Source of the DNA: Sulfurovaceae bacterium
GTDB taxonomy: Bacteria > Campylobacterota > Campylobacteria > Campylobacterales > Sulfurovaceae
DNA length: 64,000 nt
Assembly (NCBI GenBank): GCA_028714675.1
Contig: JAQTLV010000001.1
Span: 103,507 to 167,506, forward strand
Direction: 5' to 3'
Shown here: positions 45,699 through 57,705 of the stretch, piece by piece
Position numbering within the stretch: the first letter of the stretch is position 1
How the letters are laid out: each line of letters begins with the position of its first letter
Notes under the pieces: generated by a model
What the model saw: the letters and a program-made list of their open reading frames with translations, nothing else
The model's database searches: none
Told to the model about the DNA's origin: nothing
Position numbers and translations under genes: made by a program

Positions 45699-46316
45699 AT
45701 GAAATGTATATATTGCAACCATCATCATACTTATTCCCTTTGCGATGGATTAAAAAAGTGTGCCAAATGCAAAAGAAAATTTAGTCCTAAAAAACAACTT
45801 TTTATTCAAAATGCAATAGAGTTATTTTGTCAAAATACAAATGCTTTGCAAGCATCAAAGATATTAGATTGTTCTTACCTCAAAATTTCTAACATATTTG
45901 GTCGCTTTAGACATGCAATATCTGTATTTTTGGAAAATGACTTCGAATCAAACAAGGGTAAAATAGTAGAATATGAAGAATTCGTGTATACCCTTAATAA
46001 AAAAAATATTTATGAAACCCAAAGCATATTATGCTTTAGTGATAATCAAACTATATTTACCATACTAATGCCATCCATTGCACTATCTCAAAAACTTACA
46101 AGCGATGAGATTAAAAAGTTTTTTTTATTTCATAAATTTATCAAACTTCAATCAAACCAAACAAAAATTAATGAATTTCGTAGTTTTTTTTCTTTGCATA
46201 TAAAAAATTATAGAGGCGTGAGTAAGCAAAATCTGTTTTATTATATAAAAGAACTCGAGTTTAAATTTAATTATAATGAGCAAGAGAGGATGAAAATACT
46301 GAGTAAACTAATCTAA
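45699..46316 (+). CDS. Zinc-ribbon protein resembling an IS1595-type transposase N-terminus, candidate regulator
   Basis: A 205-residue protein with no close functional assignment. It starts with a zinc ribbon (KCIYCNHHHTYSLCDGLKKC, then KCKRKF), like the N-terminus of IS1595-type transposases, followed by a helix-turn-helix-like stretch (QNTNALQASKILDCSYLKIS) at about 50-70. The catalytic DDE core is not recognisable in the remaining 130 residues, and no terminal repeats surround it. It is divergent from cbiM with 112 bp between, and converges on hypF with a 9-bp overlap. Position and DNA-binding features suggest a domesticated regulator of nickel or hydrogenase genes; this is inference. Confidence 0.55.
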   Translation: MKCIYCNHHHTYSLCDGLKKCAKCKRKFSPKKQLFIQNAIELFCQNTNALQASKILDCSYLKISNIFGRFRHAISVFLENDFESNKGKIVEYEEFVYTLNKKNIYETQSILCFSDNQTIFTILMPSIALSQKLTSDEIKKFFLFHKFIKLQSNQTKINEFRSFFSLHIKNYRGVSKQNLFYYIKELEFKFNYNEQERMKILSKLI

Positions 46317-48542
46317 ATTCATCATGCTGGCAATTTGCCCTAATGCGATACCACCATCATTTGGCGGAATAGCTTGTGCAAAGTATATATTTGGAAATTT
46401 TTCAATCAACAAAGACAATAAAATACGATTTTGAAACACCCCACCACTCAAAACTAAAGGCATATTTTTATAATCTTGTTGCACAAAATTTATTATCTCT
46501 ACGATAGTTCTAAAAAATTTCGAAACTGCTATTTTTTTATCCTTTTCTCTTAGAATGGATTTTATAATTTTGTCTATTTGTATTTTTTTGTTTATTACAT
46601 CAAATTCATAATACTCTTTTATATTTTTATCAAATAACTCTTCAAGTCTCATCCCACTTTCGCCTTCAAAAGTTATAATTTGACATACATTAAGCATTGA
46701 AGCCACTGCATCAAAAAGCCTTCCCATTGATGATGTTTTTGGAGAATTTATTTTCTTTTCATACATAGTGTAGAAATTTTCTAATTCATTTTTTTCAAAT
46801 GCTGATATGACATGATTATTTAAATTTATAGCTTCCTTGCCATATATATCAAATAAAATAGACAATGCAACCCTTCTTGGTTCTTTGATAGCTTTTTCTC
46901 CACCAAGAAGCAGAAATGGCTCAAGTGACAATACTCTGTCAAATCCATTTTTGTTACAGACTAAAAACTCTCCACCCCATAAAGTGCCATCTTCTCCATA
47001 TCCAGTTCCATCAAAGGCTACGCCAAGAACAGGAAGCTCTATTTTGTGTTCAGCTACAACAGACAATATGTGAGCATGATGATGCCATACACCTTGCGTG
47101 TTTTTATAATTTTCTTTGGCAAATTTTGTTGATTCGTATTGTGGATGAAAGTCATACAGAACAATATCTGGTTTAAAATCATAAAGTTTAGTAAATGTTT
47201 CTACATTTGACTTGAGATAATTTACAGATTCTATGTTGCCCAAATCTCCAATATGAGGGGATAAAACTACATCATTGCCAAAACCAATTGCTATTGTGTT
47301 TTTTTGATTTGCACCAAATGCCAAAATATTTTCTTTAAGTACAGAGGGAAGTTTTATTGATAATGGGGCATATCCTCTTGCGCGACGAAGCATAACAGTT
47401 TTTTCTTTAACAACCATCGCGACGCTATCATCACAACCGTTGACAATTTCTCTGTTGTGATCAAGTATGGCATCATAAACATTTTTAAGTTTTTTTAGAG
47501 ATTCTAAATTTATGCATAATGGTTCATCACTTATGTTCGCACTAGTAGCTATCAGCGGACGATTTAATTTATTCATTAATAAAAGATGCAATGGAGTGTA
47601 TGGTAGAAAAACTCCAATTGTATTTATATTTGGTGCAACAAAAGTAGATATTTCTTTTGATATATCAGGCAATGCTTTGAGCAAAACAATAGGTCTTTGA
47701 GGCGAGTTTAGTAATAGTTCTTCATTTGTAGATATTTCTGCTAAATTTTTTGCCATGTTTATATCATTTGTCATTATGGCAAATGGTTTGCTCGGCCTAT
47801 TTTTTCTATCTCTAAGTGTTTTTACAGCATCACTATTTGTTGCATCACACACCAAGTGATAACCGCCAACGCCTTTTATGGCTACAATTTTTCCATTTTT
47901 TATTGCATCAACCGCTTTATCTATAAAAACAGAATACTCTTTGTCGCTTTTTTGCCAAGTGTCATTTTCAAACCAAGATAGTTTTGGACCACAATCAAAA
48001 CATCCTATTGGCTGTGCATGATATCTACGATTTGTTGGGTCATTGTATTCTTCTTTGCAAGCTTTGCACATTTTAAAACTAGACATTGAAGTAAACTCTC
48101 TATCATATGGTAGATTTGTTATGATGGAGTATCTCACGCCACATTGTGTACAGGTAATGAATGGATAGTTAAATCTTCTATTGTTTGGATCAAATAATTC
48201 TGATTGACACTCTTTGCAAACATATAAGTCAGGCGGAATTTTAACTGTTTTTTCTCCACCACTATCACTTTTTTCTATTGTAAAATTTTCAAAAATTTGA
48301 TTGTCAACTTTAATGTGTATTATGTTGTCAATTTGAGATAGCGATGGTTTATGTTTGTTTATTTTGTCTAAAAATTCTTTTAGCTGGACAGTCGTTGCAT
48401 TTATATATATTTCTACACCACTAGCTCCATTGCTTATTTTTCCTTTTAATCCAAGCTTTGAGGCTAAAGTATATATAAATGGGCGGAACCCAACCCCTTG
48501 TACCACGCCATTTATATTTATTTTATATGTAGAATATGTCAT
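46308..48542 (-). CDS. hypF: Carbamoyltransferase HypF
   Basis: Makes the carbamoyl group used for cyanide ligands from carbamoyl phosphate. The 744 residues show an acylphosphatase domain (GVVQGVGFRPFIYTLA, about 10-25), two zinc fingers (CKECQSE ... CTQCGVRY; CKACKEEY ... CFDCGPKL), a YrdC-like domain (KIVAIKGVGGYHLVCDAT) and a Kae1-like domain with the metal motif VWHHHAHILSVVAEH and VLSGGVFQN near the end. It overlaps hydE by 4 nt and ends the hydrogenase operon. Confidence 0.96.
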   Translation of the reverse strand: MTYSTYKININGVVQGVGFRPFIYTLASKLGLKGKISNGASGVEIYINATTVQLKEFLDKINKHKPSLSQIDNIIHIKVDNQIFENFTIEKSDSGGEKTVKIPPDLYVCKECQSELFDPNNRRFNYPFITCTQCGVRYSIITNLPYDREFTSMSSFKMCKACKEEYNDPTNRRYHAQPIGCFDCGPKLSWFENDTWQKSDKEYSVFIDKAVDAIKNGKIVAIKGVGGYHLVCDATNSDAVKTLRDRKNRPSKPFAIMTNDINMAKNLAEISTNEELLLNSPQRPIVLLKALPDISKEISTFVAPNINTIGVFLPYTPLHLLLMNKLNRPLIATSANISDEPLCINLESLKKLKNVYDAILDHNREIVNGCDDSVAMVVKEKTVMLRRARGYAPLSIKLPSVLKENILAFGANQKNTIAIGFGNDVVLSPHIGDLGNIESVNYLKSNVETFTKLYDFKPDIVLYDFHPQYESTKFAKENYKNTQGVWHHHAHILSVVAEHKIELPVLGVAFDGTGYGEDGTLWGGEFLVCNKNGFDRVLSLEPFLLLGGEKAIKEPRRVALSILFDIYGKEAINLNNHVISAFEKNELENFYTMYEKKINSPKTSSMGRLFDAVASMLNVCQIITFEGESGMRLEELFDKNIKEYYEFDVINKKIQIDKIIKSILREKDKKIAVSKFFRTIVEIINFVQQDYKNMPLVLSGGVFQNRILLSLLIEKFPNIYFAQAIPPNDGGIALGQIASMMNLD

Positions 48543-50401
48543 TTTTGGGCATCAGTATAAATAATTCCAAAACCAATGTTTGCCTCATCGAGAGGAAGTT
48601 CTTTATTAAAACATGTGTTGTAGTTTTTAGATATATTTATATATGAATGTTCTAAAAGTTTTAAAGATTCAAACAATGAACCAGTTATACATACAGCACC
48701 AATTTCATGCTCTGACGATATGTGGTCTACTTGTTTTGATAAAAATTCTGCAAAGCTTTCAACTATTCCATAACAAAGTGTCAAATTATCCATATCAGTT
48801 AGTTTAAAGCTCATTGCTGTGCGTATAGTCCACAATACATCTAAAACCTCTCTATTTGCCATAGCTTTAGTTTTATAATCTATTCTTGGCCCTTTTTTTC
48901 CTCTAAAATCTTGAGCCAATTCAATTACTTTTTGCCCAGCTTTATATAAATCATCGCCATTATATATACCTAACATTATTGCTATGGCACCCCAAATTAA
49001 AAATATTTCACCATTAAATTCTTGTGATTTTTTAAATACTATATTTTCACTAAGACCATATCTATTTTTAAAGTTTTTTACAAGCGTTAGGGCTGTTTTG
49101 TCTTCTTTTTCCAAGCTGTCAAAAATTTCTTCCACACTATTAAATTCAAAAGAAAAAAACATATAATCAATAAGACCAAACTTTGGCGAATTAATCATTA
49201 TTTTATTGGGATATTTTTTACTGCAATATAGTCCAATCGAAGTATTTTTCCATAAATTATTTTGAGCTATTACAGAATAAAAAGCACCATGACATGCTTG
49301 AAATTTAATACTTCCAACAGCATTTTCTTCTTGAAGTTTAAAAAGAACAATATCATTTGGAACGATAACGCTTTTATTATTCTCAATATTTATACTATCT
49401 TCGTTTGTATAGGTTGTATACATATCGGTCATCGCATATAAATTTGGTTGTATTTTCCCATTAGTTTTTGCCGTAAAAGGCAATATGCCTCTATCACCCT
49501 TTAAAACAACATTTATTTTATTATTTAAAATACTAACATATAGTGGCAAAGTAGGGTTTATATGTGTAGAGAAGTCAAGTTCAATAGAATGTTGATTTGA
49601 GTCATCTGGTGCGATAAAAATATAATCAATTTGTATCTTTTTCAATTCTTGACATATAAGCTCCAAAATTAAGTCATCACTCATTTTAACATCTATATTT
49701 ATATCTTGGATATATGGGTGTTTTTCTCTAAAGTCCATAGTTACAAAAGTTCTAATTATTGGTTTTTCAAAACTTCCTATGGCTAAAGCTTGTACTTCAG
49801 ATACATCACAAGCTTTATATACTGATGCCAAATCAACACAAAGTACCGTAAATCCATCTAATAATTTTTTGTAATTGTTTTCTGTAAGCATTCCAAGCAA
49901 TACAAAACCATTCATTGTTTTAACCCTGACAATCGCTCCATTTTTGATGACAAAAGCAATGCTCTCAAAAATCTTTTTATTATCATCTTCTATGGTTTTG
50001 GCAAAATTTTTGAAAACAAGAGGGCTTTTTGCTACATCATATCCACAAACTTCGCATTGGATAAAAGGATCATAGAGAGAAATTGCTTTTTTGAGGCATT
50101 GTGGGCAAAATGGTGACTTTGGTTTGCTATCAGTTGTTGATTCATGTGAAACATCATTAGGATATTCCTCAACCACTACCACAGAACTACTTTTTATAAA
50201 TATAGAATGTGGCAATTCGCTTGAAAGCAAATCTGCAAATTCTACCAATTTTGTTTCACTTTCGGAGTTTATATATAAAGATAAATTATCTCCATTTTTT
50301 ACTATTTTTCCATCAAGCATACTTTCTTTTAGTGTTCTAGCAATTATTTTTTCAACTAATTGTGATGTTGATGTGTACTCAAATGAAAATTTTAAAATCA
50401 C
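48539..50401 (-). CDS. hydE: HydE-like hydrogenase accessory protein, apparently a degenerate HypF relative
   Basis: A 620-residue cytoplasmic protein in the position of hydE of Wolinella and Helicobacter hydABCDE operons, where it is needed for hydrogenase activity. It looks like HypF without its catalytic motifs: an N-terminal acylphosphatase-like alpha/beta stretch (1-85), one zinc finger (CPQCLKK ... CEVCGYD, about 97-122), a middle region and a C-terminal ITGSLFESLKLLEHSY that parallels VLSGGVFQNRILLSLL of HypF. No HHHAH motif is seen. It starts at the hydD stop and overlaps hypF by 4 nt. Its biochemical role is unknown. Confidence 0.8.
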   Translation of the reverse strand: MILKFSFEYTSTSQLVEKIIARTLKESMLDGKIVKNGDNLSLYINSESETKLVEFADLLSSELPHSIFIKSSSVVVVEEYPNDVSHESTTDSKPKSPFCPQCLKKAISLYDPFIQCEVCGYDVAKSPLVFKNFAKTIEDDNKKIFESIAFVIKNGAIVRVKTMNGFVLLGMLTENNYKKLLDGFTVLCVDLASVYKACDVSEVQALAIGSFEKPIIRTFVTMDFREKHPYIQDINIDVKMSDDLILELICQELKKIQIDYIFIAPDDSNQHSIELDFSTHINPTLPLYVSILNNKINVVLKGDRGILPFTAKTNGKIQPNLYAMTDMYTTYTNEDSINIENNKSVIVPNDIVLFKLQEENAVGSIKFQACHGAFYSVIAQNNLWKNTSIGLYCSKKYPNKIMINSPKFGLIDYMFFSFEFNSVEEIFDSLEKEDKTALTLVKNFKNRYGLSENIVFKKSQEFNGEIFLIWGAIAIMLGIYNGDDLYKAGQKVIELAQDFRGKKGPRIDYKTKAMANREVLDVLWTIRTAMSFKLTDMDNLTLCYGIVESFAEFLSKQVDHISSEHEIGAVCITGSLFESLKLLEHSYINISKNYNTCFNKELPLDEANIGFGIIYTDAQK

Positions 50402-50943
50402 TATATACCTCTTTTATATGATAGTTTTGCAATATCTTTCAGTAAACATTCTTTTTTAATATGAGACTTTATACCCAAAGAGGTAAGGTGTTTGATAATT
50501 ATGTCTTCCATTAAAACAGAAGCTTTCATAACTTCATCTGTCATTTCAAATGTAGAATTTTCTCCTATCACATATGGGATTACTCCTACTATTTTAGTTG
50601 GTGGCAAGTCGCCCATGAGTTGAATCATTTGTAATGTTTGCAACATCTCAACTTCGTGAGCACTTCCCTGCCATGTTATATTTTCTGGAACAGCTTCAAA
50701 ATCAAAGAAATAAACATCACCTATTTTACCATCATCTGTGTTTACACAGTCTATTAAAATAGTATAATCATATTGCGTAATAGTTGGAATAAGCAGTTGT
50801 GCCAACGTTCCTCCATCTACAATATCAACGGTATGCTCTTGTGATACAAAATCATATTTTTCATCAAGATAGTTTGCGAGATGTGCTCCGATTCCTTCAT
50901 CACCAAACAATATATTTCCTATCCCCAATATCAAGATTTTCAC
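50401..50943 (-). CDS. hydD: Hydrogenase maturation protease (HyaD/HybD family)
   Basis: Endopeptidase that removes the C-terminal extension of HydB after nickel insertion, 180 residues. Nickel-sensing ligands are present: Glu in NILFGDEGIG (residue 16), Asp in TILIDCVNTDD near 65 and His in QGSAHEVEML near 95. It is 178 bp downstream of hydC, past a stable hairpin, and joins hydE at a shared base. Confidence 0.93.
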   Translation of the reverse strand: MKILILGIGNILFGDEGIGAHLANYLDEKYDFVSQEHTVDIVDGGTLAQLLIPTITQYDYTILIDCVNTDDGKIGDVYFFDFEAVPENITWQGSAHEVEMLQTLQMIQLMGDLPPTKIVGVIPYVIGENSTFEMTDEVMKASVLMEDIIIKHLTSLGIKSHIKKECLLKDIAKLSYKRGI

Positions 50944-51121: not shown

Positions 51122-51817
51122 TTAGTGTTTTTTCTTCCATTTGAGTCCACTAAATATAGCATCCATCCCACCTTCTTTGCCAAAGATAGAGTTATAAATT
51201 GCCATATACACATGCACTGTAACAAATAAGATGATACCCCATGTTAAAATGTGGTGAAATAGGCGAACGGTAGATAGTCCCCCAAATAGTGATTCAAAAA
51301 ATCTCATAGGACCATTAATTAAGCCACCAAATCCACTATGATAAACATTAGTATACAGAATTAAACCTGTAAGAATAAGTAAAAAAATCATTATATAAAA
51401 ACTAACATAAGCGACAAATTGCAATGGATTGTATGCACCTTTAATCGCTGGGTGTTTTTCTATCAATAGGTAATATTTTATTTGTGCCATCCAAACCTTT
51501 GGATTTAAAAAATCACCTAGTGAAGTTCTTTCATTAGCATGTTGTTTGCTAAAGAAAAATAGGAAAGTTTTATATAAAATAACAGAAATCAACACAAAAC
51601 CAAATATTTCATGCCAGCTTCTAAAAAGTGCATATAAAAATCCAGTTGGTTCAGCGTTAACTGGCGGCGATAAAAATGGATATGCAAGATAAAATCCACT
51701 TACTGCCAATACAACAATAGATAGGGCTCTAATCCAATGTTGCCAACGAAAAGCAACACCAAACTCAACCTCTTCTTCTTTGCATGGTATTTTAAGAGAT
51801 TCGTTTAATTGTGCCAT
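51122..51817 (-). CDS. hydC: Ni/Fe-hydrogenase b-type cytochrome subunit
   Basis: Di-heme cytochrome b that anchors HydAB to the membrane and passes electrons to menaquinone, 231 residues. Four transmembrane helices carry His ligands: RWQHWIRALSIVV (helix 1), FRSWHEIFGFVL (helix 2) and RLFHHILTWGIILFVTVHVYM (helix 4 with two). It follows hydB by 12 bp. Confidence 0.94.
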   Translation of the reverse strand: MAQLNESLKIPCKEEEVEFGVAFRWQHWIRALSIVVLAVSGFYLAYPFLSPPVNAEPTGFLYALFRSWHEIFGFVLISVILYKTFLFFFSKQHANERTSLGDFLNPKVWMAQIKYYLLIEKHPAIKGAYNPLQFVAYVSFYIMIFLLILTGLILYTNVYHSGFGGLINGPMRFFESLFGGLSTVRLFHHILTWGIILFVTVHVYMAIYNSIFGKEGGMDAIFSGLKWKKKH

Positions 51818-51829
51818 TATAAACCTCCT

Positions 51830-53563
51830 TTATACACTACATTTATCATATAGTGGATCAACTTTATAGGCACCTAGATTATTGCCTTTTGTGTCCATAA
51901 CATGCACAGCACATGCTATACACGGATCGTATGAATGTATGATACGAATTATTTCTAAAGGTTTCGTTAAGTCCTCTATTTTTAGACCAATCAAGTCTGC
52001 TTCATAAGCACCATGTTGACCCTTGGCATCTGTTGGTCCAGCATTCCAAGTTGAAGGAACAACTGCTTGGTAATTTTCAACTACACCATTTTTGATTCTT
52101 ACCCAGTGGCTAAGCATTCCTCTTGGGACATCTCCTATACCACGACCTTTGTACTCTTTGTCTTTATCAATTACATAGTGAGCACATGTTGTTTGATCTA
52201 CTTTTAGGTTTTCTATAAGATTATGGAAAGCCGTAAGAGTATTGTCTGCGATGATTTTTGTTTGAAGCATTCTAGCAGCTGTTCTGCCTAGAGTTGTAAA
52301 AAGTGCAGCAGCAGGCAATCCTGTTTTTTGCAAAAATTCACCAACAGTATCAACAACTTTTTTATTTCCTTTTACATAGTTAACAAGTAAGCAGGCCAGT
52401 GGTCCAACTTCCATAGGTTTGCTATTGTATCTTGGAGATTTAATCCAGCTGTACTTATCTTTTTCATTGATAAGTTTGGTTTGTTCTAGAGTATTTTTTG
52501 CCCCTACGCTTTGACCATCGATATAGCCTGTATAGTTAGGTTCTGTTTTTCCATCATAAGGATGCAATGGACCATTGTCTTTGTACCATGAGTGAGTAGC
52601 ATCTTCTGTGATTAAATCTTCATTAACATCAAATGCTTTTGTCAAATCACCATCAAGGATATAACCACCCTCAAATAGGTAATCATTTTCGCCAACCATG
52701 AACTCTTTTCCGCACATAAAGTTTTTAACGCCAACTGGTTTAACAACAGAAGGCTCTGTTTTGTATGCATCCGCGGCCATCAAAATATCAGCATAATAAG
52801 CATTATCTATAAAATTCTTAGCATTTTGGAATTTTACTAAATATTCACCCATTCTAGATGGACTTAAAAGATCCATTACGCAAGTTACACCACCAACAGT
52901 TAAGCTTTGTGGATGCGGTTGTTTACCACCAAAAATAGCTAACATTTGAGCGGCTTCTCTTTGGAATTCAAGTCCTTTCAAGTAGTGAGAAAGTGCTATG
53001 AGGTTTTGTTCTGGACTAAATTTATATGTTTTGTGCCCCCAATATCCATTTGCGAATGGTCCTAAGCCTTGTGGACTTTTTGCCAATTTCGTGGCTTTTT
53101 CTTGTGCTAGTTTCAATTCCGCTTCACCTGTGGCTATAGGATTGTCACTATATTTGAATGCCAATTCGCTAGCTTTTTTAGGATCCGCACTAAGTGCTGA
53201 AACTATATCTACCCAATCTAGAGCATGTAAGTGATAAAAATGAACTGGATGGTCATGTATAAATAGTGCAGCATTCATCAATGTTCTTGTGAGTTCTGCG
53301 TTTAATGGCGGTTTAATGCCAAGTGCATTTTCAACAGCCATAGTACTTTTTAGAAAGTGTGAATATGTACACACTCCACAAATTCTTTGCATCATAAAAG
53401 GAACATCTCTAGGATCTCTTCCTTTGGCAATAACTTCAAGTCCTCGCCAAAGTGTTGATGACATGTAGGCTTGCTGGACGACATTGTTATCATCAACTAC
53501 AACCTCCGCTCTTAAATGTCCCTCTATTCTTGTTATAGGATCTACGATAACTCTTTTTGACAT
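51830..53563 (-). CDS. hydB: [NiFe] hydrogenase large subunit, group 1 uptake type
   Basis: Catalytic subunit of 577 residues. The NiFe site is ligated by two CxxC motifs: RICGVCTYSH (about 62-71) and the C-terminal DPCIACAVH, followed by a 19-residue extension (from VMDTKGNN to DKCSV) that HydD removes after the His. N-terminal RIEGHLRAEV is the usual first motif. It is exported as a complex with HydA through the Tat signal of HydA. Organisation hydA-hydB-hydC matches periplasm-facing H2-oxidising enzymes of Wolinella and Helicobacter. Confidence 0.96.
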   Translation of the reverse strand: MSKRVIVDPITRIEGHLRAEVVVDDNNVVQQAYMSSTLWRGLEVIAKGRDPRDVPFMMQRICGVCTYSHFLKSTMAVENALGIKPPLNAELTRTLMNAALFIHDHPVHFYHLHALDWVDIVSALSADPKKASELAFKYSDNPIATGEAELKLAQEKATKLAKSPQGLGPFANGYWGHKTYKFSPEQNLIALSHYLKGLEFQREAAQMLAIFGGKQPHPQSLTVGGVTCVMDLLSPSRMGEYLVKFQNAKNFIDNAYYADILMAADAYKTEPSVVKPVGVKNFMCGKEFMVGENDYLFEGGYILDGDLTKAFDVNEDLITEDATHSWYKDNGPLHPYDGKTEPNYTGYIDGQSVGAKNTLEQTKLINEKDKYSWIKSPRYNSKPMEVGPLACLLVNYVKGNKKVVDTVGEFLQKTGLPAAALFTTLGRTAARMLQTKIIADNTLTAFHNLIENLKVDQTTCAHYVIDKDKEYKGRGIGDVPRGMLSHWVRIKNGVVENYQAVVPSTWNAGPTDAKGQHGAYEADLIGLKIEDLTKPLEIIRIIHSYDPCIACAVHVMDTKGNNLGAYKVDPLYDKCSV

Positions 53564-53581: not shown

Positions 53582-54739
53582 TTATTCTTTTGGTGGCTTA
53601 ACTGCAGAAATTGCGGCATGTGCAGCAATCCCTATAGCTGTTACTGTTAAAAGTGATATCCCAATTTTATCAACTGTCGCATCAGCGCCCAGTCCTCCAA
53701 AAGGACCATGGAACAGATGATCTGCCATAGGCTCTTCAAAAGGTCCCATTTTGTCCCAAAATTGTGGCTCACTACAACCTATGCAACCATGTCCAGCTTG
53801 TATAGGCCAACTTGTATGTTGATTAAATCTCTCTTTTGAACAGTTGTTGAAAGTATATGGTCCTTTACATCCCATTTTATACAAACAATAGCCTTTTTTA
53901 GCGCCTTCGTCTCCAAAGCTTTGCACAAATTCTCCAGCATCAAAATGACCTCTTCTTTCACATAAATCATGAATTCTATTTTCATAAGCCCATTTTGGTC
54001 TGTTGTATGCATCAAGTGCTGGAAGCGTACCATATAAAATATAATGCAATAGCGTTCCAACAATATTTTTTTCACTTGGCGGACAACCTGGTACATTTAT
54101 AACAGGTTTACCAGTTATTTCACTCAATGGCACAGCTCCTGTTGGGTTCGGCGCAGCAGCTTGTATACCACCAAAGCTAGAACATGTACCTATGGCAAAT
54201 ATAGCAGCAGCTCCATCAGCAGCTTCTTTTGCTACATCCTGACCTGTTTTTGCAAAAGCACCAAGAGTTAAAAAGTGTCCATCTAGTTTTGTTGGTATTC
54301 CACCTTCAACCATTAGGATATATTTACCTTTGTATTTTTCAATCGCACCTTCTAAGTTTTGTTCAGCTTGCCACCCTGATGCAGCCATTATAGTTTCATG
54401 ATATTCAAGAGATATATAATCGAATATTAAAGAATCTATCGTTGGAGTATCAGTTCTAAGTAAACTTTCACTACATCCTGTACACTCAGCCATGTGTAAC
54501 CATATGATAGGTAATCTGTCTGCGACCTCTGCAGCTTTTGCAACTGTTGGTACAAAAGACGAAGAGAGACCAAGATAAGCAGTCATATAACTTGCCCACT
54601 TCATAAAATCACGTCTACTAATACCTTTTTCTTCTAAAATATCAACTATGGATTTGTTGTTGTCAATTTTTGGAAGCTTTTGTATAGCTTGCAGACGACT
54701 TTTAAAAATCTTTTTTAGAGATTTATCATAATTTTCCAT
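53582..54739 (-). CDS. hydA: [NiFe] hydrogenase small subunit with Tat signal, group 1
   Basis: Electron-transfer subunit of 385 residues with three Fe-S clusters. The twin-arginine signal (ISRRDFMKWASYMTAYLG) is about 40 residues in. The proximal cluster starts at AECTGCSESLLR, with further ligands in GTCSSFGGI and VPGCPPSEKN; medial and distal clusters lie in the C-terminal third (HFDAGEF, GCKGPYTFNNC, GHGCIGCSEP). A C-terminal helix (about 350-375) anchors it. AGGAGG at 54745-54750 favours the ATG at 54739 over those at 54742 and 54775. Confidence 0.96.
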   Translation of the reverse strand: MENYDKSLKKIFKSRLQAIQKLPKIDNNKSIVDILEEKGISRRDFMKWASYMTAYLGLSSSFVPTVAKAAEVADRLPIIWLHMAECTGCSESLLRTDTPTIDSLIFDYISLEYHETIMAASGWQAEQNLEGAIEKYKGKYILMVEGGIPTKLDGHFLTLGAFAKTGQDVAKEAADGAAAIFAIGTCSSFGGIQAAAPNPTGAVPLSEITGKPVINVPGCPPSEKNIVGTLLHYILYGTLPALDAYNRPKWAYENRIHDLCERRGHFDAGEFVQSFGDEGAKKGYCLYKMGCKGPYTFNNCSKERFNQHTSWPIQAGHGCIGCSEPQFWDKMGPFEEPMADHLFHGPFGGLGADATVDKIGISLLTVTAIGIAAHAAISAVKPPKE

Positions 54740-54759: not shown

Positions 54760-54781
54760 ATGAATAATCATTCATATTGTA
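54760..54781 (-). promoter_or_regulatory. Candidate hydA promoter with TetR-type operator
   Basis: ATGAAT and ATTCAT form a 6-bp inverted repeat around 4 bp (54760-54775), 21 bp upstream of hydA, the form bound by many TetR-family repressors. On the minus strand it abuts TACAAT (54776-54781), a plausible -10 box, so binding there would block transcription start. A TetR gene lies upstream in the same direction. Confidence 0.45.
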
Positions 54782-54838
54782 AGAGAAGTTACCTTAATTA
54801 AATATAAAAAGATAAAAAATAAATAAAAATATTCATAT

Positions 54839-54860
54839 TAATTATTATCCTTAATAATTA
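54839..54860. other. AT-only palindrome after the second large-subunit gene
   Basis: TAATTATTA and TAATAATTA pair perfectly around TCCT, 11 bp after the stop of the upstream operon. It may be a weak terminator of that operon or another regulator site for hydA; it contains no G-C pair in the stem. Confidence 0.35.
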
Positions 54861-54870
54861 TTATAAGTTT

Positions 54871-56154
54871 TTAATGAGTAGTGCATACAGAACACACATC
54901 AAATGTGCGAAATATAAAAGTAGCTTCCTCTGTGTTTATGCTGCCTTTCATCGCTTTTGTGGCTATTCCAGAGGTTTTTTCTATACCATTTGATAAATTC
55001 CATTGAGTTGGGGTTATTATATTATAGTTTTGTATTTTACCCCCTTTGATAATGCTTTGATGAATCAATGAACCTCTAGCAGCCTCTACGATACCTGTTC
55101 CATTGGCTTCCAAATCTTTTGGAAACTTAGGCAATGTACATGACAACTCTTTTACATTTAAGTTTGCCAATAATTTTTTTGTATATATCAAAAGTTTTAC
55201 AATTTCATCCATTCTCGCACAAACTCTAGTTAAAGCACTGTCTTGATATTTGCTGTGCATATCCATAATAAAATCATTTTTTTCTAATATCGCTCTTGCT
55301 AGTGGTCCAACTTCGTAGCATTTATTCTCATAGGCTACAGATTTTGCTTTTGAACCTGTTTGTATGTGTTCTTTAATATATTCAATCTTGGCAGTACCAT
55401 ATATATTTTGATCATATTGTCCATCTTTAAATACAAGATGTTTTCCTAGTGCTAAAAACCTATTATAGCTTTTGCCTTTTTCTTGCATATTTTGATTGTT
55501 TAGCATATTGAGGATTTCTATCATGTCACCATTTATATTTGAGATTTCTTTTGTTTTGTAATACTCATCAATGCTAATGCCTAAAAATTCTTGTTGTGTA
55601 AATCTTATAATATCATCAATTAAGGCTTCCGCTTGAATAATCTCCTCATAAGTAGGATCACAACTTACGCCGCCAGGAACTACATAACCAGAATGCGGCC
55701 ATTGTCCTGCAAAAATTGCTAATGCTTTAACTGTATTTATGCTAACCCAAGAAGCTTTAAGTATGTGGTTGTCGGAAATTGTTAATTTATTTAAATTTGC
55801 CAATTGGGGCATGGCGACCAAATAAAACCATTTAAAATGACTTTGAATTATTTCACAACATAGTGTAAATTCACGCAAAGATATTGCTTTTGGGGTAAGA
55901 TGGATGTTAACGCCAGCATCTATAAGCCCATTTTCTATAGCCCTTGTGCTAGCTATAAGATGTGCATGATTACAAATTCCACAAACTCTAGGAGTAATCA
56001 CTAGTGCATCTAAAGCATCCCTGCTTTTTAATATTTCTTCTATACCTCTATAAAATGGAAAAATTATATTTACATTATTTACAATACCATTTTTAAAATC
56101 AAATTCAAGCTCTGTTTCACCCTCTACTTTTTCTACAAAATGTTTTATTTTCAT
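54871..56154 (-). CDS. [NiFe] hydrogenase large subunit without C-terminal extension (sensory/group 2-like)
   Basis: A 427-residue large subunit, shorter than HydB. NiFe ligands are in PRVCGICNHAH (about 56-66) and the terminal DVCSVCTTH, with which the protein ends. The lack of a cleavable tail is a feature of HupV/HoxC-type sensory hydrogenases, which mature without a protease. The Pro normally next to the first Cys (DPCxxC) is Val here. It overlaps the small-subunit gene by 4 nt. It is either an H2 sensor or a cytoplasmic uptake enzyme; sensor is favoured because of the TetR gene in the same operon. Confidence 0.85.
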   Translation of the reverse strand: MKIKHFVEKVEGETELEFDFKNGIVNNVNIIFPFYRGIEEILKSRDALDALVITPRVCGICNHAHLIASTRAIENGLIDAGVNIHLTPKAISLREFTLCCEIIQSHFKWFYLVAMPQLANLNKLTISDNHILKASWVSINTVKALAIFAGQWPHSGYVVPGGVSCDPTYEEIIQAEALIDDIIRFTQQEFLGISIDEYYKTKEISNINGDMIEILNMLNNQNMQEKGKSYNRFLALGKHLVFKDGQYDQNIYGTAKIEYIKEHIQTGSKAKSVAYENKCYEVGPLARAILEKNDFIMDMHSKYQDSALTRVCARMDEIVKLLIYTKKLLANLNVKELSCTLPKFPKDLEANGTGIVEAARGSLIHQSIIKGGKIQNYNIITPTQWNLSNGIEKTSGIATKAMKGSINTEEATFIFRTFDVCSVCTTH

Positions 56155-57047
56155 TTTTTATACTTTATAATAGGTTCATTTAAACGTTTTATAGTAAAAC
56201 TTTTAGCAATACCAGCAATTGTTAGATATGCTCTTTTTGGTATACCAATCGGCATGGAAGCTGGTATGCCCATAAGTGTAGTCGTGTGCCATAAATTTTT
56301 TTTAGGAAATGTTGGCTCTGTACATCCAAAACAAGGCGTTCCAACTCTTGTTTTCGAACTTATTTCATTCCAAAGAATTTTGTTGCAATTGGCATGAGTA
56401 AAAGGAGCCTGACATCCATGATCATAAAATAAACATCCTTCCTTGTGCCCATATCTTGATACATCTATCTTCCATTCATAATATTCACTTCTAGAACACC
56501 CAACATGAGCATTATAAGCATAAATTTCCAACGGTCTATGCAACTCATCTAGTGGAATTTGTCTGTGCGTTAAAATCATAGACAATACACTTCCTATCCA
56601 TCTAGGATGTGCAGGACATCCTGGTATGGATATAAGCTTTTTTTTGAACAACTTATATGTTTCATTTGGAAGTTCGCCATCAAAACAAAATCCACCAATT
56701 GATTTTGTATCGTACTGTCTAAATATCCCACCAAAAGTAGCACAACTTCCAGCAGTTATAATATGTTTGGCTTTTTTGGCATATTTTTGTGCTATATCGT
56801 ATATTTCTTTGTTTGCCTTTTTCATACCGGTTTGCCTAAAGGCACCTTCTAATACCAATACATCACATGTTAAGTTTTCATTAGCAACATTCTCTAGTGT
56901 ATATTTAGTATTTAAAATAGGGTGATGTATTATTTCAAATTTTTGCATTAATGCTACGAAGTCTGGATGAGAAAAAAATGAATGAGTATTGCCATTACAT
57001 GTAATTGACTGTAGCCATAATATAGTTGGTTTTTTAAGTTTTGGCAT
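56151..57047 (-). CDS. [NiFe] hydrogenase small subunit without Tat signal
   Basis: A 298-residue cytoplasmic small subunit, with neither Tat signal nor membrane anchor. Cluster ligands seen are SITCNGNTHSFF (CxGN in place of the CxGC of HydA), TAGSCATFGG, SIPGCPAHPRW, HVGCSRSEYYEW, EGCLFYDHGC, HANC and GTPCFGCTEP. From memory, CxGN also occurs in cyanobacterial HupS-like group 2 small subunits, which supports placement outside group 1. It lies 2 bp after the TetR gene and overlaps the large subunit by 4 nt. Confidence 0.85.
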   Translation of the reverse strand: MPKLKKPTILWLQSITCNGNTHSFFSHPDFVALMQKFEIIHHPILNTKYTLENVANENLTCDVLVLEGAFRQTGMKKANKEIYDIAQKYAKKAKHIITAGSCATFGGIFRQYDTKSIGGFCFDGELPNETYKLFKKKLISIPGCPAHPRWIGSVLSMILTHRQIPLDELHRPLEIYAYNAHVGCSRSEYYEWKIDVSRYGHKEGCLFYDHGCQAPFTHANCNKILWNEISSKTRVGTPCFGCTEPTFPKKNLWHTTTLMGIPASMPIGIPKRAYLTIAGIAKSFTIKRLNEPIIKYKK

Positions 57048-57049
57048 TT

Positions 57050-57646
57050 TTATGTTTTTAGTGCATTATATATATTTTGCGTTATATCATCAGTATATTC
57101 TTTAAGCGGACGAGATAATATAGCCTCACCATTTAAGAATGCCATGCCCCCTAAATATCCCATAAAAAGTCCAAAAGCAGAAAAAAAGTCCTGATCTCTA
57201 AGTTCGCCGCACTCTACTCCATCTGAAAAAAATATCATAATCTCGGTTATAAAACCAGCCACACAAACCATTCTTTGACATTCACCCACAAATACTTCTC
57301 GATGAGATAGATAAACGCGTAAAAAATACTCTATCATTTCTGGTTTTTCTATTGCCATCTTAAAATAAACTTCAACTATTTTATGTATTTTTTTGTAGGT
57401 TGTAAGTTTTTTTTGTTGATTTATTTTTCGTATTTCTTCACCTAATACTTCAGATGTATATTTGATAATCTCTTGAGCTAAAATCTCTTTCGACGGAAAA
57501 TAATTATATAAATTCCCAGAACTCATTCCTATTCTTTTAGCAATATTTGGGATTGTTGTTTTGTGAAATCCATATACAGAAAATAGTGTAAGTGCAGCTT
57601 GAATGATGGATTCTTTTTTTTGAACCCTTTTCCCACCTTGAGACAT
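57050..57646 (-). CDS. TetR/AcrR family transcriptional regulator
   Basis: A 198-residue regulator. The N-terminal helix-turn-helix is typical (HKTTIPNIAKRIGMSSGNLYNYF, split here as HKTTIPNIAKRIG and MSSGNLYNYFPSKE, about 29-55). The C-terminal ligand domain has Cys in REVFVGECQRMVC and GVECGE, of possible redox use. ATG at 57646 is chosen because AAGG lies 6 nt upstream; a GTG precedes it. It is the first gene of an operon with the cytoplasmic hydrogenase pair, and hydA behind them has a TetR-like palindrome. Confidence 0.88.
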   Translation of the reverse strand: MSQGGKRVQKKESIIQAALTLFSVYGFHKTTIPNIAKRIGMSSGNLYNYFPSKEILAQEIIKYTSEVLGEEIRKINQQKKLTTYKKIHKIVEVYFKMAIEKPEMIEYFLRVYLSHREVFVGECQRMVCVAGFITEIMIFFSDGVECGELRDQDFFSAFGLFMGYLGGMAFLNGEAILSRPLKEYTDDITQNIYNALKT

Positions 57647-57705
57647 CACTATCCTTTTGCCAAATAATTATTATATTATCGTAGCATAATTTTCAATAAA
57701 CTTTG

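Follow-up and report, generated by a model that had tools for sequence, protein, structure and literature searches.

A TetR-family regulator encoded together with a cytoplasmic [NiFe]-hydrogenase pair (HuaSL) is very probably a dedicated repressor of hydrogenase synthesis, and from sequence comparison we hold it highly likely that it represses the uptake hydrogenase genes hydABC through a palindromic operator. HuaSL itself would be the H2 sensor for this repressor, a reading to which we assign a probability of roughly 0.57. The full proposal, for which we see about an even chance, is kinase-free H2 sensing in which a regulatory [NiFe]-hydrogenase talks directly to a one-component TetR protein, perhaps by passing electrons to a cysteine pair, and so regulates uptake hydrogenase, maturation and the import of nickel throughout Campylobacterota. 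Members of this phylum, among them Sulfurovum, Sulfurimonas, Sulfurospirillum and Arcobacter, are leading oxidisers of H2 in vent and sulfidic-water habitats, and to our knowledge little has been established about how they switch on its use. With a repressor, an operator of 14 bp and a set of predicted target genes now named, the disputed role of the group 2 hydrogenase is open to simple experiments.

The tetR-huaSL module and its distribution

The genes from tetR to hypF, and the promoter elements of hydA described below, lie on the minus strand of the window, the whole 64-kb stretch of DNA that was analysed. The regulator gene, tetR (57050..57649, with GTG at 57649 or ATG at 57646 as start codon), encodes 199 aa and was recognized by a Pfam TetR_N match, an AlphaFold2 model and gene order. 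It is followed after 2 bases by the gene for HuaS/HupS (56151..57047; Pfam Oxidored_q6 and NiFe_hyd_SSU_C), the small subunit of a group 2d-like cytoplasmic [NiFe]-hydrogenase, which in turn overlaps by 4 bases the gene for the large subunit HuaL/HupL (54871..56154; Pfam NiFeSe_Hases). The single operon of regulator and hydrogenase pair proposed in the initial annotation is thus borne out as one compact unit. About 130 bases separate huaL from hydA (53582..54739, starting at 54739 or 54742; TIGR00391, 9.2e-164), the predicted target, which encodes the small subunit of a periplasmic uptake hydrogenase with a Tat leader. Further along are hydB (51830..53563; large subunit with a C-terminal extension), hydC (51122..51817; cytochrome b subunit, TIGR02125), hydD (50401..50943; maturation protease, TIGR00140 and TIGR00072), a gene for a 620-aa HypF-like accessory protein (48539..50401; a weak HypF_C_2 match and its place 3' of hydD in relatives) and hypF (46308..48542; sequence and a position kept in relatives). 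The last two genes probably form one transcription unit with hydABCD. In relatives the HypF-like gene is likewise kept downstream of hydABCD, and some versions have a zf-HYPF finger (L127).

We surveyed 397 Campylobacterota genomes, each at least 90 % complete, and found the small subunit in 113, TetR in 114 and both in 112. The gene order proved to be conserved: tetR was directly upstream of huaS on the same strand in 111 of the 112 genomes with both, at a median gap of 8 bases between matches, and the remaining genome had the two genes on different contigs. In the only genome with huaS and without TetR, huaS was situated at a contig end. TetR and huaS also co-occurred and adjoined among 99 related genomes. 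Named carriers comprised Sulfurovum, Sulfurimonas, Nitratifractor, Sulfuricurvum, Sulfurospirillum diekertiae, S. cavolei and one Arcobacteraceae genome, and plasmid copies were present in Sulfurimonas paralvinellae and Sulfurovum mangrovi. The adjacency itself is already known, as Kruse et al. noted tetR upstream of hupSL (SMUL_1421-1422) in S. multivorans and proposed it as a local repressor of hupSL (PMC5357620). What is new, within the literature searched, is the operator and regulon of this TetR, of which no description was found there.

The operator at hydA and the predicted regulon

The palindrome ATGAAT-N4-ATTCAT at 54760-54775 has one exact match in the window, and the only copy of TGAATRRNTATTCA in the 1.75 Mb genome is the one at hydA; in most genomes lacking TetR, TGAATRRNTATTCA has 0 occurrences. 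Conservation of the site followed the regulator: when the 300 bp preceding hydA were examined, TGAAT-N4-ATTCA was present in 32 of 38 genomes with TetR vs 3 of 20 without it (Fisher p 4e-7, a value that treats the genomes as independent although they are related). Dinucleotide shuffling put the chance of such a site at about 0.2 % per 300-bp upstream region. A chance palindrome is ruled out by the single genome-wide match, the single match in the window and the contrast between genomes with and without TetR set against the shuffle; very probably, then, it functions as an operator. One of the three TetR-lacking genomes with a site (G052) retains a TetR remnant, and several of the six TetR-bearing genomes without the exact site at hydA have versions with one mismatch. 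The operator was also found where hydA is far from tetR (L070, L091-L095), and it precedes two types of hydA, about 52 % and about 73 % identical to that of the window. We give scarcely any credence to the idea that some other TetR-type protein uses the operator, its correlation with this TetR being due to inherited linkage: paralogous TetRs do carry a similar site before their own genes, yet most TetR-bearing genomes have no such paralogue, and the site is mostly absent where TetR is absent.

The position of the site points to repression rather than activation. Its 14-bp core at hydA, TGAATGATTATTCA (54761..54774), identified from genome-wide counts and promoter position, starts 1 base after the -10 box TACAAT (54776..54781; supported by the sequence and by hexamer enrichment across sites) and lies just upstream of the AAGGAGG ribosome-binding site of hydA; a TTAAG element kept in related hydA promoters lies 5' of the -10 box (54793..54797). 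Across genomes the site begins 1-3 bases 3' of the -10 hexamer. Relative to the operator, 27 of 43 sites have such a hexamer beginning at -9 to -7, and no other single position has more than five. The operator probably covers the transcription start of hydA, as the initial annotation had supposed. Many Sulfurovum genomes have a second site 44-45 bp upstream, just before TTAAG, and this pair flanking the core promoter, like the single site over the start, is arranged as one would expect for a repressor. The earlier suggestion that TetR acts on hydA through the palindrome is well supported at the level of sequence: both the order of the genes and the operator are conserved, the operator goes with TetR across genomes and two hydA types, and the site lies on the probable start.

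Exact sites in TetR-bearing genomes were further identified before a NicO-like transporter with hypB, hypC and hypD (L114, L116, L120, L121, L122, L126), hypB operons (L111, L112, L130), hypA (L113), cbiM-type nickel/cobalt uptake genes (L117, L118, L131) and a HypF-like gene (L127), whilst a minority of sites had no evident link. As a predicted regulon, the operator-bearing genes are a coherent set for making [NiFe]-hydrogenase. Promoters of the window's own hyp and nickel genes carried no site, even allowing one mismatch, and the predicted targets in this genome are therefore only hydABC and co-transcribed genes. This bears on another reading, in which HuaSL would report nickel or maturation status and not H2, only matured HuaSL would release (or support) TetR, and the hyd, hyp and nickel-uptake genes would follow nickel supply. 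The sites before nickel transporters and hyp genes agree with it, but a response to H2 predicts the same targets and the window genome has its site at hydA only, so that we consider nickel reporting unlikely.

A separate observation concerns a 205-aa zinc-ribbon, transposase-like protein without a Pfam match (45699-46316), a candidate second regulator. Its relatives occur in 36 of 97 genomes, some of them lacking TetR, and are often divergent from operator-bearing hyp or nickel genes (L111, L112, L117, L118, L120, L122, L126, L130).

The distribution of sites also speaks to the suggestion made for S. multivorans (PMC5357620) that TetR locally represses the huaSL operon to which it belongs. The adjacency of tetR and huaSL is in its favour, as are sites upstream of tetR in one family (L242, L246, L247, L251, L252), but the operator was upstream of tetR in just 3 of 80 loci, being absent from the other 77 and from the window, vs upstream of hydA in 43 of 49. 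Local autorepression as the main role of TetR is mostly ruled out by these counts, with that one family as a possible exception, and we regard the local-repressor reading as highly improbable. The family in question has two hydA operons, most of which have exact or one-mismatch sites, such that both hydA types are covered and some tetR genes too; it is probably Arcobacteraceae, judging from the arrangement described in PMC12286921. In its five loci listed above, the palindrome TGAATTTTCATTCA or a one-mismatch version is situated about 56-59 bp upstream of tetR, which suggests autoregulation of tetR there.

HuaSL, TetR and the signal

HuaS begins with MPKLKKPTILWLQ and has no Tat leader, in contrast to HydA with its leader SRRDFMKWA. 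Nine of its cysteines are invariant across homologues, and its proximal-cluster motif is C-N-G-N (N20), the final N being replaced by D or C in some relatives (L057, L061, L068). HuaL keeps the four active-site Cys and ends DVCSVCTTH without a C-terminal extension. The Tat-less small subunit and the CTTH end described in the initial annotation were both evident here, and every complete homologue of HuaL stops at that point. The end of HuaL resembles that of the sensor HoxC, whereas extensions are present on the 2a-like and 1b large subunits used as comparators. By identity, HuaS is not closest to group 2b (30-33 % to HoxB vs 35-41 % to 2a-like small subunits), and HuaL is 24-26 % identical to HoxC. 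A 2a-type enzyme was rejected, since it would not be expected to have a large subunit as compact as this and left unprocessed, and HuaSL has neither the C-terminal extension nor the dedicated protease of that group. We assigned HuaSL as group 2d-like by matching the locus descriptions in PMC5357620, PMC4149538 and PMC12286921.

Other hydrogenase genes were encountered in the collection. One genome with the TetR module also has, next to hypBCD, a separate group 2a-like pair that carries a C-terminal extension and is accompanied by a small protease-like gene (L234:2001-4825). Two loci (L259:1396-3807 and L261:1399-3819) encode proteins of about 806 aa in which an NAD(P)H-oxidoreductase/BFD-like part is fused to a hydrogenase small subunit; that of L261 adjoins a large subunit gene, and similar long frames are present in several genomes without TetR.

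Residues 15-61 of TetR match the N-terminal TetR helix-turn-helix domain (PF00440, E 2.6e-15), and the AlphaFold2 model (pLDDT 89) has the all-helical TetR fold, with TM-scores of about 0.6-0.8 to solved TetR proteins. The closest of these, BCE_2991, FadR and RutR, are ordinary ligand-binding TetRs. C124 and C129 of the ligand domain were invariant in all 35 sequences of a first set, as was the stretch QDFFSAFGLFMGYLGG, and the pair was kept in 80 of 80 TetRs of a second set (79 by search pattern and L209 by eye). Both residues are in or beside a low-confidence loop between two helices. C147 varies among homologues, and a paralogue outside hydrogenase loci (L235) is without the C124/C129 pair, so that the earlier suggestion of redox input through cysteines of the ligand domain holds up as reasonable for C124 and C129 and does not extend to C147. 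Other paralogues have cysteines at a shifted position. Paralogous TetRs at L137, L138, L143, L144 and L148 are 40-45 % identical, some with an operator-type site at their own promoter; that of L148 adjoins an Ech/Coo-type NuoB-like gene, and at L145 an operator-type site precedes a molybdopterin oxidoreductase gene.

The role of the cytoplasmic group 2 hydrogenase of Campylobacterota has been debated since 2007, almost two decades. Proposals have included a sensor, a ferredoxin reductase and an H2 producer, with the role called speculative (PMC4584964); a possible part in H2 sensing was among the earlier proposals, and an enzyme role for HuaSL was argued from similarity to Aquifex (both in PMC4584964). 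In S. denitrificans there was no soluble H2 uptake activity though the cytoplasmic hydrogenase was transcribed (PMC4149538). In S. multivorans there was scarcely any hupL transcript, hydB being constitutive (PMC5357620), and in A. butzleri with H2 both hynAB sets were up 2.3-6.2-fold and huaSL was down (PMC12286921).

Two genomes bear directly on what TetR responds to. In G216 and G400 (loci L231 and L232) tetR stands upstream of the operator and hydABC, with one opposite-strand gene inserted in L231, whilst huaSL was neither nearby nor detected. Because these TetRs keep operator and Cys pair, TetR can presumably act without HuaSL and may also sense redox via its two invariant cysteines. It is accordingly possible, though clearly less probable than the sensor reading, that TetR represses hydABC and accessory genes on a signal of its own, be it redox at C124/C129 or a small ligand, and that HuaSL is a low-potential cytoplasmic enzyme, e.g. 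one feeding ferredoxin, and merely an operon partner. Consistent with this are the two genomes, the Cys pair invariant with and without HuaSL and absent from the L235 paralogue, and the Aquifex-like enzyme proposal (PMC4584964). Against it, huaSL was not found without tetR, save for the exception at a contig end, soluble uptake activity was lacking (PMC4149538), the huaSL transcript was very low (PMC5357620) and fell with H2 (PMC12286921), and HuaL ends like a sensor HoxC.

HuaSL as the H2 sensor of TetR is the best explanation because, the case at the contig end aside, no genome has huaSL but lacks TetR, and because HuaL is unprocessed like HoxC. The missing Tat leader and the intact active-site Cys are likewise sensor-like, and the published activity and transcript data on S. 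denitrificans, hupL and A. butzleri also favour this reading. Under this model a TetR dimer would bind TGAAT-N4-ATTCA over the hydABC start and block transcription, and in many relatives it would also bind before hyp maturation and nickel-uptake genes. HuaSL would detect H2, probably via a change of redox state at the [NiFe] site and clusters, and relay the signal to TetR, either through direct contact or via electrons handed to C124/C129, such that repression would be lifted when H2, the presumed signal, is present. TetR may have a redox input of its own, in which case HuaSL would provide the H2 branch of the control in most species. Points against the sensor model are the two genomes without huaSL, the constitutive hydB of S. 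multivorans (PMC5357620) and the Aquifex-like enzyme proposal (PMC4584964).

Comparison with known systems

TetR shares its fold with FadR of Bacillus, the operator of which is a similar inverted repeat. Identity to the FadR structures is only about 16-18 %, and the TetR described here differs in its conserved C-terminal domain and in a Cys-x4-Cys in a poorly predicted loop. Among group 2a hydrogenases (Huc, cyanobacterial HupSL), the small subunit of Huc is the closest solved structure to HuaS and the C-x-x-N proximal motif is common to both; the 2a-like comparators have their own C-terminal extension and protease gene, unlike HuaSL. With group 2d HuaSL/HupSL the likeness extends to the type of locus, as in SMUL_1421-1422 (PMC5357620), the Suden_1437 region (PMC4149538) and huaSL of Arcobacter and Sulfurospirillum (PMC12286921). 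The function of those pairs is unsettled in the literature, whereas here the pair is linked to a TetR that has a predicted regulon and a defined operator.

HupUV/HoxBC (group 2b; comparator HoxBC of Afipia carboxidovorans, L236, where a gene for an ATP-binding protein lies immediately upstream) resemble HuaSL in the cytoplasmic, Tat-less small subunit, in a large subunit that stops at its final Cys-x-x-His and in adjoining the uptake hydrogenase that the pair would regulate. The initial annotation had proposed a route different from that of HupUV/HoxBC. The unprocessed C-terminus, being common to HoxC, does not by itself separate the two systems. HupUV/HoxBC use the kinase HupT/HoxJ and the regulator HupR/HoxA, whereas the huaSL loci, including the surroundings of huaSL in the window, carried TetR with hyd and hyp genes and contained no histidine kinase or NtrC-type regulator, and the partner of HuaSL would be a one-component TetR repressor. 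If true, this adds a kinase-free form of H2 sensing to the known routes.
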